A stretch of DNA of 20,311 nt, from IMG/VR virus record IMGVR_UViG_3300021960_000674, positions 1 to 20,311 of that record. One strand, given 5' to 3'. Within the stretch, counting starts at the first letter, position 1. Every line of letters starts with the position of its first letter. Positions 2,769 through 17,545 of the stretch are shown here, one piece after another. This DNA is from a virus. The notes under the pieces were generated by a model. The model ran no database searches. It was given only the letters and a program-made list of their open reading frames with translations, and had not been told where the DNA came from. A program made the translations under genes and the position numbers.

Positions 2769-5700
2769 GATCAATGAATGTTATGTTATTAATTTTAGTA
2801 CCTACTGGTAAAAACTGCTTAGCTTCTGCTAATATACTAGTTTTAATTTGATCTCTCACAATAGAGTTTGTAAGATTAAGATCTCTTACAACTATATCAA
2901 TTAAGTTAGAAGAATTATTTCTATTAAACTTAAAGAATTGCTGTATCTCAGTTTTTGATGTTCGTTGACCACCTGGTAAAGATAATGTAATATCATCAAT
3001 ATCTTTAGTTGAAAGGTAAATTGCAAATATCTCTTCTGTGCTAATAGCTCTATCGTAAATAAATGGATTACGTACAATCAGATCTTTAGAGTAATAATAT
3101 TTAGGTTGCCTCAAGTATGTAGCAAGATCAAGATTACTCTGGAAACCAGTTGATCCTATAAAGAACTGATCAGAGAAAATATCTTGAATTAAATACTTTC
3201 CTGGTTGAAAGGTTTGATTTTCATATAGATCTCCGTTTATATATAAAGAAGAATTACCTTGTAGACTATCAAGCCTATACGTGAAGTTATAAAATCCTGG
3301 CTCAAAAGAGCTTGGTTGGAAAGATATGGTCTGATTTAGGACATCCTCGGTATCCAGATAATTTCTTAAACTCAATTTAAAATCTATAGATGTATTATTA
3401 TAAATCCGATTAATAGCATTATAATTAGTAAGATTATTTTGACTTGTATTATCACATAGATAAACACCTGATAGAGCTGTAGCTGTTAATGTAGGAAACA
3501 ACCCTTTTGCTAAATACATGTTTTTATCACTTCCTTCAGCAAGAATTACTGGGTATTGATATTGAATACCTTCAATATATTCATTAACCCAATCAATAGA
3601 TGTGAATGCACCACCAGATAATGAAAACGTAGTATCATTAAAAGGTATTGGTATATTAATATCACCTATACTACCAGATAGCAAAAATACAGCGCTAGTG
3701 TTATGTATAAAATATTTATCTGTAGTTAGAGTTACAATAGTATCATTTAAAATATTAAAGTCAACGATTTGGTCATTTGACTTAAGAAACGACTGCGGTC
3801 CAAAATCTATATTATGCTTAACTATAAAATTACTTACTTTGTAAAAGAATGTATTATTGTTTTCCCATTTAGTTTTTGAACCTGGCAACTTATAAACTGT
3901 ATCATTGTAATCTACTACATTATCATACAAACACATCTCATCCTTATAGACATCAAACTCTGTAGAAGAAAGAGCAGATACAGACATAGTGTTAATATTC
4001 ATCCGAGTAGTCTTTTGATCAGAAGATATAAAGTCAATATGATCATGCTCCATATGTGTACCATAGTAATCTAAAATACCTGAACCACATTCAAGCTTAA
4101 TCTTATTACCTTGAGTATTTACTTTATAATATATATTACCAGCAGTTGCAACAATATAATCATCTAATGCACTTCTCTTGAAAACATGTTTAATTTTTGT
4201 TTTAAATTCTACTTTGTTAAGTAATACAAAATCCGTATTGTATATATACAAAGTATAATCTCCAACAACATGTATAAATGGCGTTACTGTCTGATCTTGA
4301 AAAATACCAAATCCTCTGTTAGTATTATTACCAATTAATTCAAAACCATAATTAACCGTAGGATCTAGATACATATCGAAGTTCAAGGTAAATGATTTAG
4401 AGTCATTAATTGCATCTTGAACATTAAAACTGGTATAGTTACTACCATTAAAAGTTAATTCCTTACCGGTGTAATCTACACAAATATTTTCTGATTCACC
4501 TCTTACAATTTTAGATGTGATATAGCTATCATACGATGATATTAAAGGAGCAGACGAATCGATAATTTCTGTAATATCCGCGCCACCGATACGTTGATAT
4601 TTAATATCGATATTAGGTTCAATAGCCGCATCACTCTTTTTATCGAAAAACTTTTCTCTCGCTAGAACAGCATCTGCAACAGATAAATCAACACCATCAA
4701 CACTATCATTTAACGCGGGTGCATATCGAGCTGAACTTGAAAGAGCTGCTGTTTTTGTAATTTTATCAGGGTAGTAGTATCTATCAACCCAGATACCAGT
4801 TTCTTCTAATGAACTACCAGATAACCAAGTACATAAATACCTACCATTATCATATTGAGTAGAATTTTGCCGTTTAATAAAAATCTTATCTGAAAGCTGT
4901 GGCGTCGGTCCAGCAAAAGCGCCATTATTTACAAATGTAGAATCATTTATATTTAATTTAGTATAAGGGTAAGTTGAAGATGGTGCTTGGAAGTAAGTAT
5001 CCGTACCATTAGTAATAAATACATCTTTATTGTAAAAGGTGTAATTTAGTATAGGATTTGTTAATCCTCCTTCCTGATCATTACCTAGATAGAGGTTGTT
5101 ATAATCTCGATTTTCATAGCCAGGTAATCCATAAGGAGTATCAATTAAATTACTACCACGCTTAATAAAGTTAAATTCAGATCTACTAGTGTCGAGAGCA
5201 AAGTAGTTAATAGGCATCTTATCACTAGATATTGTATTATAGTTAGTGATAAACATATACTGACCATTATCATCAAATGAACTCCGTTGTGTATTAAGAG
5301 TTAAATTAGATGCATTTTTTGAGCTATATGAAATAAAGCTATTATTAAGAAACTGCTTGTTAGTATCGAGGTTATAATCAATATTAATTAAATTATTAAA
5401 ATCTCTATTTAAACCAGAAGGTTGTAGAGGGGCCATAATAGGTACTATACCGGTAGGTATAGAGCTTAACGTAAAGATGGTAAGGGTTGTACCAATAGTT
5501 TTAAATAACTGTAAGTAACCATCATCGTCTAAATTATATCGGAAAACATCATTTCGCTCTTGCGTTATTTCCTTGTAGTTATCAGTATTTTGATAGAAAA
5601 CAAACTCTCCACCTGATAGGGACACACCTGAATAATTAAGGTAAAAATCAAATATACCGTTATTATGTTTAATTCTTAATAAATTATTATTAAGTGCTTC

Positions 5701-14294: not shown

Positions 14295-14819
14295 ATGGCT
14301 AAATCGAACAAATTCACAACTCTTTTAGAGTCTTACATGAAACGCTACGAGCGTGGGGGTTTTCTCGTAGGAGATGTATTCAAGTTTAATGATAACTTTA
14401 AAAGCGATGATGCATATAAAGATCTTGCTGATAATGTCAAAGGGAATATTGACTCGATGATTGATTCAGGACTTCATATTCGTGTTATTAATATTAAAGA
14501 CACTTCACCTGCAAGGTATCCTGCATCTGATCAAACATCCTCACTCGATGTTGTACTTGATATTGCACTTGATACAGGTGGCGGTCGTTACACAGATCAA
14601 TGCTCTATTCCTTGTTGTCTTGGTAGTTGTGAGCAATATGCTCCTAATTTACTTCCTATTCCAGATGGGCAGCGCCGTAAGAGTAAAGTCACTATTAAGC
14701 CTGAAGAGGTTGATGAGAGTGAAGAGAATCCAGCTAACTATACTGATAGGGGAGATGGTAAGCTTACTCTCACAGGATTATCTCTTAAGAAAGAAAGCTA
14801 CACTCAACAGTATCTTTAA
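14295..14819 (+). CDS. Conserved-looking late protein, possible internal virion protein
   Basis: A 174-residue protein of unknown family. It starts MAKSNKFTTLLESYMKRYER, in which FTTLLE ends in an L-x-E tripeptide like T4 prohead-protease sites; a short capsid-targeting peptide is therefore possible. The next part contains GGFLVGDVFKF and a beta-rich segment with LHIRVINIKDTSPARYP. A cysteine cluster CSIPCCLGSC follows near residues 108-117 and may bind metal or form disulfides. The last third is acidic then polar (EEVDESEENP). It is the first of a two-gene plus-strand unit with the zinc-ribbon gene, overlapping it by one base (TAATG). Late expression is indicated by the TAAATA boxes upstream. 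Expression as a protein is very likely; the function is unknown. Confidence 0.75.
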   Translation: MAKSNKFTTLLESYMKRYERGGFLVGDVFKFNDNFKSDDAYKDLADNVKGNIDSMIDSGLHIRVINIKDTSPARYPASDQTSSLDVVLDIALDTGGGRYTDQCSIPCCLGSCEQYAPNLLPIPDGQRRKSKVTIKPEEVDESEENPANYTDRGDGKLTLTGLSLKKESYTQQYL

Positions 14820-14992: not shown

Positions 14993-15241
14993 TTTCTTCC
15001 AGCTCTTTCTAGCTGGACCCCTCTTCTTGTATTTCTTGTTTTTAATCTTCTTACAAGCTGCATGAGTTGGTCTACAAGCCGGGTATGAAGCGCCTTTTTT
15101 TCCAGCCTTCTTACGTCCGCAAGGACCACCAGTCTTGCAGTTTACCCAACCTTTAAACTTCTTACCAGTCTTCTTATCGGTACGAGTCTTGAACCAATCT
15201 CTTAGGTTCTCACTCAATTGTAACGTCTCTTGTTGAGTCAT
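14984..15241 (-). CDS. Cys/Lys-rich basic protein, DUF5872-like
   Basis: An 85-residue, very basic protein with five cysteines. The centre reads GWVNCKTGGPCGRKKAGKKG, then YPACRPTHAACKK; this cysteine pattern is, as I recall it, the hallmark of DUF5872, a family of unknown function found in marine phages and other large viruses. The C-terminus is almost pure Lys/Arg with aromatic residues (KNKKYKKRGPARKSWKKKK), as expected of a DNA- or RNA-binding or condensing protein. The N-terminus, MTQQETLQLSE, ends in an L-x-E site. The ATG overlaps the TAA of the upstream gene (TAATG), and GGAGG lies 10 bases before that ATG (it begins at 15255), the only clear Shine-Dalgarno in the window. The family label is from memory. 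Confidence 0.72.
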   Translation of the reverse strand: MTQQETLQLSENLRDWFKTRTDKKTGKKFKGWVNCKTGGPCGRKKAGKKGASYPACRPTHAACKKIKNKKYKKRGPARKSWKKKK

Positions 15242-16134
15242 TACTTAATCTTACCTCCTCGGTTTACACATTTCTGAACATATCCAGAAGCATAAGCAGA
15301 AGGCCATACGTCATACTTACGCTTTGCTTTAGCTTGACATTTTGCACGAGTCTTTGAGACTTTCTTTTCTGCATCTTCCTCACCCTCAGACTTCTTCCTA
15401 CCTCCTTTCATATTGGCACACCAGTGATACATCTTACCTTTCTCTCCACCGTACTTCTTAGCCATCTTACGAAGTTTTGTCACTGAACCCTTACAACTAG
15501 CACCAGAACGCTTAACTCGTCCTGGGCTGCTCTCCGCATCTTCTTGATATGAACCCTTAACAAATTTAATACCTTTCTTTAATTGACCATCTGTTGCGAA
15601 GTTAGCAACCTCCAATGCAGACTTACCAGCTAACTTAGCAGTACCTAATGCAGCCTTACCAGCTAACTTTAACGCCCCCATACCAACCTTCTTGGCAGTC
15701 TCGTTATCTTCCACCTGATCCATTGGTACTATATCTAACTCTAACCCTTCGAGAGGTATCCTTCTTGTTTGACCATTCGCAGCTGTAACTGTTAGATTTT
15801 GATCATCATGAGCAAGATAATATAATGTTTCACCATTATAAACTATTGGATATCCTAAATCTTCTTCTACCTCATTTTTAAGATCTGCGATATTGTTAAT
15901 AATAGCTTTAACCTCTTCAGGGTCCATATCTTTTTTAATTGAAATAGGCTTTGTTAGTTTAACCTTACCATCAGAACCTCTTTTAAACTCATCCAATAAA
16001 GCACCTACACCTGCTGTTGCTTTAGGAGCTATATCTTTAGCTACTGCACCTGCTACCCCTTTAGCTACATCAAACAAACCTTCTTCTACGATATACTCGT
16101 TAAGCACTTTTTTATATAGCTCGTCAAACTGCAT
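15241..16134 (-). CDS. Late virion-associated protein with two Cys/Lys-rich modules
   Basis: A 297-residue protein. The N-terminus MQFDELYKKVLNE, followed by YIVEE, carries two possible prohead-protease sites (L-N-E and I-V-E) in an amphipathic helix, resembling a capsid-targeting peptide. Residues about 15-45 are Ala/Gly-rich. A compact beta-rich domain follows (NGETLYYLAHDDQNLTV). Two 11-residue repeats (KLAGKAALGTA, KLAGKSALEVA) lie near 175-197. The C-terminus has two modules that I recognise from marine phage proteins: KRSGASCKGSVTKLRKMAKK with MYHWCANMK, and KYDVWPSAYASGYVQKC. The start at 16134 is set by TATAAATA five bases upstream; an upstream in-frame ATG would translate the promoter. 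Probably packaged or virion-bound; the exact function is unknown. Confidence 0.75.
   Translation of the reverse strand: MQFDELYKKVLNEYIVEEGLFDVAKGVAGAVAKDIAPKATAGVGALLDEFKRGSDGKVKLTKPISIKKDMDPEEVKAIINNIADLKNEVEEDLGYPIVYNGETLYYLAHDDQNLTVTAANGQTRRIPLEGLELDIVPMDQVEDNETAKKVGMGALKLAGKAALGTAKLAGKSALEVANFATDGQLKKGIKFVKGSYQEDAESSPGRVKRSGASCKGSVTKLRKMAKKYGGEKGKMYHWCANMKGGRKKSEGEEDAEKKVSKTRAKCQAKAKRKYDVWPSAYASGYVQKCVNRGGKIK
15614..15670 (-). repeat. Two-copy direct repeat encoding an 11-residue helix repeat
   Basis: Two 24-base copies that start 33 bases apart (15614-15637 and 15647-15670) differ at two positions. They encode tandem 11-residue units (KLAGKAALGTA, KLAGKSALEVA), matching about three turns of an amphipathic helix. 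This looks like a recent internal duplication within the gene. Confidence 0.6.
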
Positions 16135-16139
16135 ATGTA

Positions 16140-16187: not shown

Positions 16188-16195
16188 TATAAATA
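16188..16195 (+). promoter_or_regulatory. Perfect late promoter TATAAATA, 5 bases before the ATG
   Basis: An exact T4 late consensus on the plus strand, followed by CTAAT and the ATG at 16201. It is one half of a divergent promoter pair with the box at 16140-16147; the two octamers lie 40 bases apart. Confidence 0.78.
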
Positions 16196-16200
16196 CTAAT

Positions 16201-16629
16201 ATGGCTAAACACAATACCAATTTTGGAAAAGATTTAAAAAATCTTTCAGATCTGGCGTTCTCGGTCCTTAATGAGAATACCAATGAAGTTATTAATGGCG
16301 GAGCTGCTTATAAGGGTGGTGATATCGACCACGATTGAGCGTCTCATATTAAAGCTCCTCCGTTTGGGGAGTCAATTAAGAAGATCCTTCACCACAATCT
16401 TACTGAGGAAGGTATTGTTGAAGAATATTACGTAGAGCACAACGGCAAACTCGTTGGCCTTTTAGCTGAAGATGTTGAGGTTATCCGTGAAGAAGGTCAT
16501 CCTCCAGCGAAATCATCAGATGAGGAAGATGATGATGATGAAAAGAAAGAGCATGAAGGTGAAGAAGACGAAGAAAGCACAGCCCATGGTGCACGTCCTA
16601 AACTTATCGGAGTACCTATCCTTAGGTAA
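16201..16629 (+). CDS. Acidic late protein interrupted by an in-frame UGA
   Basis: From the ATG at 16201 the frame runs 45 codons (MAKHNTNFGKDLKNL..., ending YKGGDIDHD), meets UGA at 16336-16338, and then continues open for 96 more codons to TAA at 16627. The continuation begins ASHIKAPPFGESIKKILHHN, has a second block (EEYYVEHNGKLVGLLAEDV), a very acidic stretch (EEDDDDEKKEHEGEEDEE) and a C-terminus PKLIGVPILR. It has no ATG or plausible start of its own, so it is best read as one 142-codon gene with UGA standing where TGG (Trp) would fit. The N-terminus has LAFSVLNE, an L-N-E site. Function unknown. Alternatives: a true 45-residue protein plus decayed tail, UGA read-through, or a sequencing error. 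It overlaps the clamp-loader gene tail by 8 bases. Confidence 0.6.
16336..16338 (+). other. In-frame UGA within an otherwise open gene
   Basis: The codon follows GAT and precedes GCG. A single G-to-A change from TGG would produce it, giving D-H-D-W-A-S-H in the uninterrupted protein. The base after the UGA is G, not the C typical of leaky read-through sites. Confidence 0.7.
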
Positions 16630-17545
16630 TAGCTTTCTCAAGTGATACTAGACATGCAAATGCATTAATCTCTTTATCTACTATAAAAGCACTCTTATAG
16701 AGATGATCGGCAATTATGACGATCATCTCTTTCTTTTTCATATCAGGTAAATCTTGCTCATATAGAAAGTCGAGGAAGTTAGCTAATAGAGTGTCGTAAT
16801 CACCTTGAAACCTATCCTCATTCTCAATAAGATACTTACGTAATCCTAGAGAGTTAGTCCTAACACCTTGCATAACTTTAGCCAATAGCTCGTTATCACT
16901 AGCATTAGAGTCAATACATAGCTCACCATCTACAATAGACTTTTGAATCTCATTGATAGTCTTACGAAGATCAGGGAAATGCTTCTTAACTAAGATAACA
17001 AACTTCTTCTTCTGCTCTTCACTTACCTTTACATTCTCTAGTCTAAGGATATTAAAGCATCGCTTAGCAGCTTGATCTACAACCGGTTTAAGGTCTAATG
17101 ACTGACATCTGGATTGAAGAGCAGGAATAATCTTATGCTTATAGTTAGCAGTAAGAATAAACCTACAATACTTAGCATACGTCTCCATAGTATTACGAAG
17201 AGCAGCTTGAGCTTGAGGAGTTAATCCATCCGCCTCATCGAGGATAACTACTTTGATACCACCATCGAATGATTTAGTTTGAGCAAAGTTAGTAATATTA
17301 TGACGAATGACATCAATACCAGATTCATCAGAAGCATTAATGTATAAGAAGTTACATCCAAGTATATCATTAACAATAATCCTAGCAAGAGTAGTCTTAC
17401 CTGTACCAGGGCTTCCAACAAACAACAAGTTAGGAATCTCATCCTCAAATTGCTTAACAACACGTAAAGACTTATCATCTAAGATAAGATCATCTAGCTT
17501 ATGAGGACGATACTTCTCTACCCAAATCTTATCGAAATCAACCAT
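16622..17545 (-). CDS. DNA polymerase clamp-loader small subunit, gp44-like AAA+ ATPase
   Basis: A 307-residue protein; T4 gp44 has 319. It loads the sliding clamp onto primed DNA using ATP, as the repeated subunit of a pentamer with one gp62-like subunit. Visible motifs in order: WVEKYRPHKLDDLI at 8-21, Walker A GSPGTGKTT at 44-52, Walker B VVILDEAD at 99-106, sensor-1 LTANY at 131-135, and the SRC arginine-finger motif at 145-147. All catalytic residues are intact. The ATG lies two bases after the dUTPase stop (TAATTATG), so the two are co-transcribed from the promoter near 17980. The gene is an early or middle replication function set among late genes, and its 3' end overlaps the convergent UGA-containing gene by 8 bases. 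A hairpin for that convergent transcript lies inside this gene. Confidence 0.95.
   Translation of the reverse strand: MVDFDKIWVEKYRPHKLDDLILDDKSLRVVKQFEDEIPNLLFVGSPGTGKTTLARIIVNDILGCNFLYINASDESGIDVIRHNITNFAQTKSFDGGIKVVILDEADGLTPQAQAALRNTMETYAKYCRFILTANYKHKIIPALQSRCQSLDLKPVVDQAAKRCFNILRLENVKVSEEQKKKFVILVKKHFPDLRKTINEIQKSIVDGELCIDSNASDNELLAKVMQGVRTNSLGLRKYLIENEDRFQGDYDTLLANFLDFLYEQDLPDMKKKEMIVIIADHLYKSAFIVDKEINAFACLVSLEKAIT
16699..16739 (+). terminator. Intrinsic terminator-like hairpin inside the convergent clamp-loader gene
   Basis: AGAGATGATCG (16699-16709) and CGATCATCTCT (16720-16730) form a perfect 11-base stem with a 10-base loop. On the plus strand the stem is followed by a T-rich run (TTCTTTTT). 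It lies 70 bases after the stop of the plus-strand acidic gene and is suited to end that transcript. On the minus strand it lacks a following T run. Confidence 0.5.

Follow-up and report, generated by a model that had tools for sequence, protein, structure and literature searches.

Organization of the recoded gene and its surroundings

The window, i.e., the whole stretch of 20,311 nucleotides that was analysed, is an IMG/VR record (20.3 kb) from a T4-like phage that lacks close relatives among isolates. With proteins of cyanophages, pelagiphages, and other phages, its gp44 protein shares about 40% identity and the gp23 protein of a relative about 35%. The gene considered here spans positions 16201-16629 (+), and its translation confirmed the frame described in an earlier note on this DNA, that is, 45 codons, an in-frame UGA (16336-16338), a further 96 codons, and the terminators TAA TAG. 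The same note had recognized a perfect late promoter, a neat end within the convergent gene, and a downstream part devoid of a start codon of its own, and all three features were borne out. The T4-type late promoter −10 element TATAAATA, read directly from the sequence, is located at 16188-16195 (+), with the ATG five bases further on; the TAA falls within the terminal 8 bases of the convergent gene (16622-17545, −), which encodes a gp44-type clamp loader; and no start codon is found in the same frame closely 3' of the UGA. In the window, an in-frame ATG also exists upstream, at 16135; most of the relatives harbor a stop there, and the conserved start is 16201, not 16135. As for the other genes of the window, a Shine-Dalgarno-like sequence precedes few of the starts, many of which are located only a few bases after AT-rich or TATAAATA-type leaders.

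The predicted protein contains, close to its N-terminus, the tripeptide L-N-E (16267-16275, +), a possible prohead-protease site recognized by eye in the family, the site rule of the T4 prohead protease being (L/I)xE. It is followed by a conserved domain spanning the UGA (16306-16500, +), whose alignment reads KGGxxxHD-[UGA]-ASHIxxPxFGES..LHHxLxxxGxxEEYYxEHNGKL..AE, by an acidic linker of variable length (16519-16575, +), absent or replaced in some relatives, and by a C-terminal motif, HGARPKLxGVPxxR (16585-16626, +), which is conserved in the alignment and absent from one clade (L057/L060). The protein of the window has neither a second Cys nor a CxxU/UxxC redox motif, and the search of Pfam and PHROGs gave nothing significant for it.

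Conservation of the in-frame UGA in related phages

Relatives were collected through peptide and DNA pattern scans of IMG/VR, where the contigs are fragments. The gene was found in 31-32 contigs, corresponding to 20-21 distinct sequences with a domain identity down to about 64%, and the codon is UGA in all of them, TGG or TGY in none. When the pattern was run with the codon left free (NNN), TGA alone was retrieved, apart from a single sequence of a later scan bearing CGA (L076), which was discarded as a chance match. No phage record was matched by tblastn with the readthrough protein as the query, and no copy of the gene was disclosed by a scan of bacterial genome assemblies.

The most conserved part of the gene is represented by the flanks of the UGA, KGG[DN][IV][ED]HD-UGA-ASHIxxPxF. 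The part N-terminal of the UGA is poorly conserved, its length ranging between 45 and about 145 codons, and the relatives either lack the acidic tail or vary in it. The differences among relatives (L054:2354-3016, −; L057:2275-2829, +; L014:4830-5474, +) consist of large insertions to both sides of the conserved domain and of the loss of the acidic tail; the L057 protein ends with a run of Lys in its place. In another relative (L015, about position 5397-5399), an extra TAA occupies the place of a Glu codon of a near neighbour and truncates the C-terminal part.

The earlier note had also raised the question of whether the downstream frame is conserved: it is, in all these relatives, and dN is well below dS. 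For the region 3' of the UGA, the comparison between the window and L010 gave a dN of 0.13 and a dS of 1.04, and that between L010 and L057 a dN of 0.27 and a dS of 2.1. These values indicate that the frame 3' of the UGA is under purifying selection. The recurrence of the UGA with conserved flanks in all the relatives found is far beyond chance.

The hairpin downstream of the UGA and the Cys-containing homologues

A SECIS-like hairpin (GCUCCUC-CGUUU-GGGGAGU) is located at 16354-16372 (+), i.e., at nt 19-37 when the U of the UGA is counted as 1. Its core stem is formed by 16357-16360 pairing with 16366-16369 (nt 22-25, CCUC, with nt 31-34, GRGG) and encloses the apical loop CGUUU (16361-16365, nt 26-30); in every sequence, CCUC pairs with GRGG around a loop NGUUU. 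This order, a U, a short stem, and a loop with G-U, presumably resembles the SelB contact sites of Escherichia coli fdhF. In the published model of the bacterial SECIS element, the loop has 3-9 nt and the stem 4-16 bp, the spacing is 16-37 nt, the energy does not exceed −7.5 kcal/mol, and one of the first two bases of the loop is a G, mostly with a G or U after it (PMC13188914). All the sequences share this geometry, with a loop of 5 nt, a stem of 4-7 bp, and a spacing of 22 nt. As for the energy, it is −8.5 kcal/mol in the window, from −8.5 to −9.8 across the window clade, and about −8.0 in the L054/L062 group, within the −7.5 limit; in the L018, L030/L031, and L057/L060 clades, the hairpin alone reaches only −4 to −5 kcal/mol, short of that limit.

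The nucleotides of the hairpin appear to be constrained beyond the amino acids that they encode. The same hairpin was obtained by synonymous resampling in just 0.65% of the cases for the window and in 1-4% for the other clades. Counting from the UGA, codons +7 to +10 (CCT; CCG/CTG/CAG; TTT; GGG/GAG) keep the same third base in 20/20 sequences, even where the encoded amino acid differs (P/L/Q and G/E), and most of the neighbouring codons vary. In particular, the loop G (16362) is invariant even though it is the third base of a Pro, Leu, or Gln codon depending on the relative; in these phages, CCG accounts for 10-13% of the Pro codons and CAG for about a quarter of the Gln codons. Codon +10 is GGG or GAG throughout the UGA family, whereas in the Cys homologues described below a Gly codon at that position ends in G in just one out of 52. 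The sequences themselves show a hairpin conserved under selection at the nucleotide level. Its covariation was not above that of shuffles, since the stem hardly varies, and an Rfam search of the hairpin region gave no match.

The distant homologues are found among cyanophage proteins, in an SH3/Tudor-like domain, HDCASKVKHEEFG. A likeness to the cyanophage HDCASKV domain was at first only presumed, and a blended query led to the Cys family, matching P-SSM7, S-ShM2, AG-345 records, and others; the later tests were carried out with an X at the site. A clean query matched 262 phage records, and a profile matched 363 stretches of IMG/VR; among the loci inspected, the aligned position is occupied by Cys in 80/80 cases from IMG/VR and in 16/16 from the phage records. 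With X in place of the UGA, hhalign gave P = 0.0011 against 15 Cys sequences and P = 6.9e-5 against 63 Cys sequences over 55 columns, with a score of 26.5 that exceeded all 300 column shuffles, one of which reached 26.2. In these alignments, the UGA column is set opposite the Cys, within the segment C/U-A-S-[KH]-[VI]-x(4)-[FYW]-G, so that HD-UGA-ASHI aligns with HDCASKV as one segment; the identity between the UGA and Cys domains is 29%, i.e., that of remote homologues. In a search of the UGA phages with the Cys HMM (2,225 six-frame segments), copies of the recoded gene took all of the first 26 places, with an E value of 0.002 at best, and the first other match followed at 0.083.

Comparison of the profiles shows the domain of the cyanophages (Kyanoviridae) and that of the recoded gene to be one and the same (H-D-C/U-A-S-[KH]-[VI]..[FYW]-G); the former differs in that it bears a Cys at the site and belongs to differently composed proteins, such as PSSM7_192 of P-SSM7 (annotated as "possible cytitidyltransferase", T4-GC 715) and SShM2_183 of S-ShM2, and the hosts of its carriers are mainly Synechococcus and Prochlorococcus. 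The model of the Cys domain is a five-strand SH3/Tudor-like barrel (pLDDT 89.5), whose PDB matches include the UvrD/PcrA Tudor domains at a Z of about 5, a value to be read in the light of how common this fold is. The model of the UGA domain has three strands at places roughly matching those of the Cys domain; its pLDDT is only 52, and for this reason the comparison of the folds does not add a confirmation of homology.

Predicted decoding of the UGA and possible role of the protein

Three marks have been used in surveys to recognize a new selenoprotein family, namely a conserved in-frame TGA, homologues bearing Cys at the corresponding site, and a SECIS-like hairpin (PMC1088965), and all three occur together in the recoded gene. 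The invariant UGA, the invariant Cys of the distant relatives, and the conserved hairpin make a selenium-containing protein the most likely product. We consider it probable, on these grounds, that the gene encodes a phage selenoprotein, expressed late, possibly internal to the capsid, whose UGA is decoded as selenocysteine by the machinery of the host. In late infection, the gene would be transcribed from the TATAAATA promoter; a host SelB-type elongation factor would bind the hairpin just 3' of the UGA and deliver Sec-tRNA, and the UGA would then be read as selenocysteine rather than as a stop. The residue would take the place of the invariant Cys in the small SH3/Tudor-like domain known from cyanophage proteins, where it might act either as a metal ligand or in redox chemistry, since several His residues are conserved together with it. 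A reading of this kind, selenocysteine with a SECIS-like hairpin, was absent from the earlier note, which had listed programmed readthrough yielding a short and a long form, suppression, a recent nonsense mutation, and a sequencing error, and had pointed out that TGA is one base change away from TGG. The part of that interpretation that stands is recoding, to which the alignment of homologues at the codon clearly points; an ancestral TGG is unsupported, because the distant homologues carry Cys and not Trp.

Some of these explanations can be weighed against the same data. Readthrough of the UGA without selenium, in which the 3' hairpin would pause the ribosome or hinder RF2 and a near-cognate tRNA (Trp, Cys, or Arg) would read the UGA in part of the passages and yield a minor long form, is the main rival and appears less likely than selenocysteine, even though it too would require an invariant UGA with a conserved 3' hairpin and though the insertion of Cys by a near-cognate tRNA would be compatible with the Cys homologues. 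No defined short product is conserved, because the domain runs through the UGA and the length of the upstream part differs greatly; since the conserved domain spans the UGA and the N-terminal part varies, the codon does not separate a conserved short protein from an add-on, and this also disfavors the programmed pair of short and long forms as the main function. Moreover, a need for Cys or Trp at this site should have left a sense codon in some of the 20-21 sequences, and the spacing of the hairpin and the G-U of its loop match the SECIS model. Two adjacent genes, or termination followed by reinitiation, with a short ORF ending at the UGA and a second protein starting just after it, would be in keeping with reinitiation at or near stops being common in phages; however, no ATG, GTG, or TTG lies closely after the UGA, and the codon lies inside the most conserved stretch, HD-UGA-ASHI, whose match to HDCASKV forms a single segment, so that this arrangement is very improbable.

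An explanation at the level of the genetic code, i.e., a phage or host code in which UGA stands for an amino acid throughout, would explain why a conserved gene contains an in-frame UGA, but it is still harder to accept. TGA ends 2/14 long ORFs in the window and 7/62 and 14/74 in two longer relatives, and Trp is encoded by TGG; UGA is not reassigned, because TGA terminates 10-19% of the ordinary long ORFs, and a phage-wide suppression is excluded or unlikely. No tRNA genes were found, and the comparison of TGA-read-through frames disclosed no other convincing conserved in-frame UGA among the matches listed, the other candidates examined being antisense frames or gene junctions. At 735-737 (−) of the window, TGA ends a gene of the tail region, in whose frame the next gene is also read; the short stretch after this TGA, LLNTAIDINI, is similar in L178, perhaps because the promoter of the next gene lies there. 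Lastly, a sequencing error, a nonsense mutation, or a pseudogene is refuted: the one point in favor is the separate, later TAA truncating the tail in L015, but many metagenome assemblies, made separately, show the UGA without exception, and 3' of it dN remains well below dS.

The selenocysteine reading would place the gene beside some known systems. With bacterial selenoproteins (E. coli FdhF and the families found in the marine surveys of the Sargasso Sea and GOS, PMC1088965, PMC2398784), it shares the UGA/Cys pairing and an in-frame hairpin directly 3' of the UGA, with a G in a small apical loop and a spacing within 16-37 nt. Unlike them, it belongs to a T4-like phage and encodes a domain that is SH3/Tudor-like, on the basis of the Cys homologues, rather than a thioredoxin fold or a formate dehydrogenase, with no CxxU/UxxC. 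The unnamed marine families GOS_A and GOS_B (PMC2398784) may be the same family. Among viruses, selenoproteins are represented by the glutathione peroxidases of two poxviruses (PMC8310308), where a virus gene relies on the Sec machinery of the host, as proposed here; in that case, however, the SECIS is eukaryotic and the enzyme was captured from the host, whereas the phage gene has a bacterial-type SECIS and a phage domain. A search of the open-access literature found no phage selenoprotein family, which is a weak sign of novelty. In phage Q-beta, inefficient readthrough of the leaky UGA of the coat gene adds the extension of the A1 protein; there too a phage UGA is read through, but in the present gene the codon is located inside a conserved domain and is accompanied by a hairpin and Cys homologues.

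If the reading is true, a tailed phage depends on the selenium metabolism of its host for one of its own proteins, Sec is present in a kind of domain for which redox enzymes are not known, and the recoded protein will have been truncated by gene callers in every genome carrying the gene. It would also provide a clue for host prediction, as the host should possess SelB and tRNA-Sec; the partial phage contigs showed no Sec machinery, and 16 of them, searched for tRNA-Sec, gave no hit above threshold. The only hint concerning the host, a weak one, comes from a relative in which a 64-nt RNA at L181:11484-11547 (+), corresponding to 70884-70947 of the G001 contig, bears both the 5' and the 3' signature of a tmRNA (Rfam tmRNA, 59.5 bits). 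This mini-tmRNA is without an mRNA-like domain and immediately precedes a late promoter; at its 5' end it is similar to Ignavibacteria tmRNAs, and its matches are mostly of the Ignavibacteria type. No SelB above the cut-off was detected in 25 genomes with an Ignavibacteria-type tmRNA, so that the hint points to genomes without such a SelB.

As for the location of the protein, the LxE motif near its N-terminus fits the T4-type prohead processing of internal proteins, and might suggest a processed protein internal to the capsid; the internal proteins of T4 have been described (PMC9958956). A broader proposal, according to which a family of selenoproteins is peculiar to these phages, is tentative and should be viewed with some doubt; the protein, late and internal to the capsid, would be packaged in the virion with its SH3/Tudor-like, Sec-bearing domain and perhaps be ejected into the host, so as to tie host range and yield to Sec-decoding hosts. 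Two neighbouring genes of the window, 14295-14819 (+) and 15241-16134 (−), have short starts ending in LxE (LLE-SYMKR and LNE-YIVEE, respectively) near late promoters, and possibly form, together with the recoded gene, a cluster of processed head-internal proteins.
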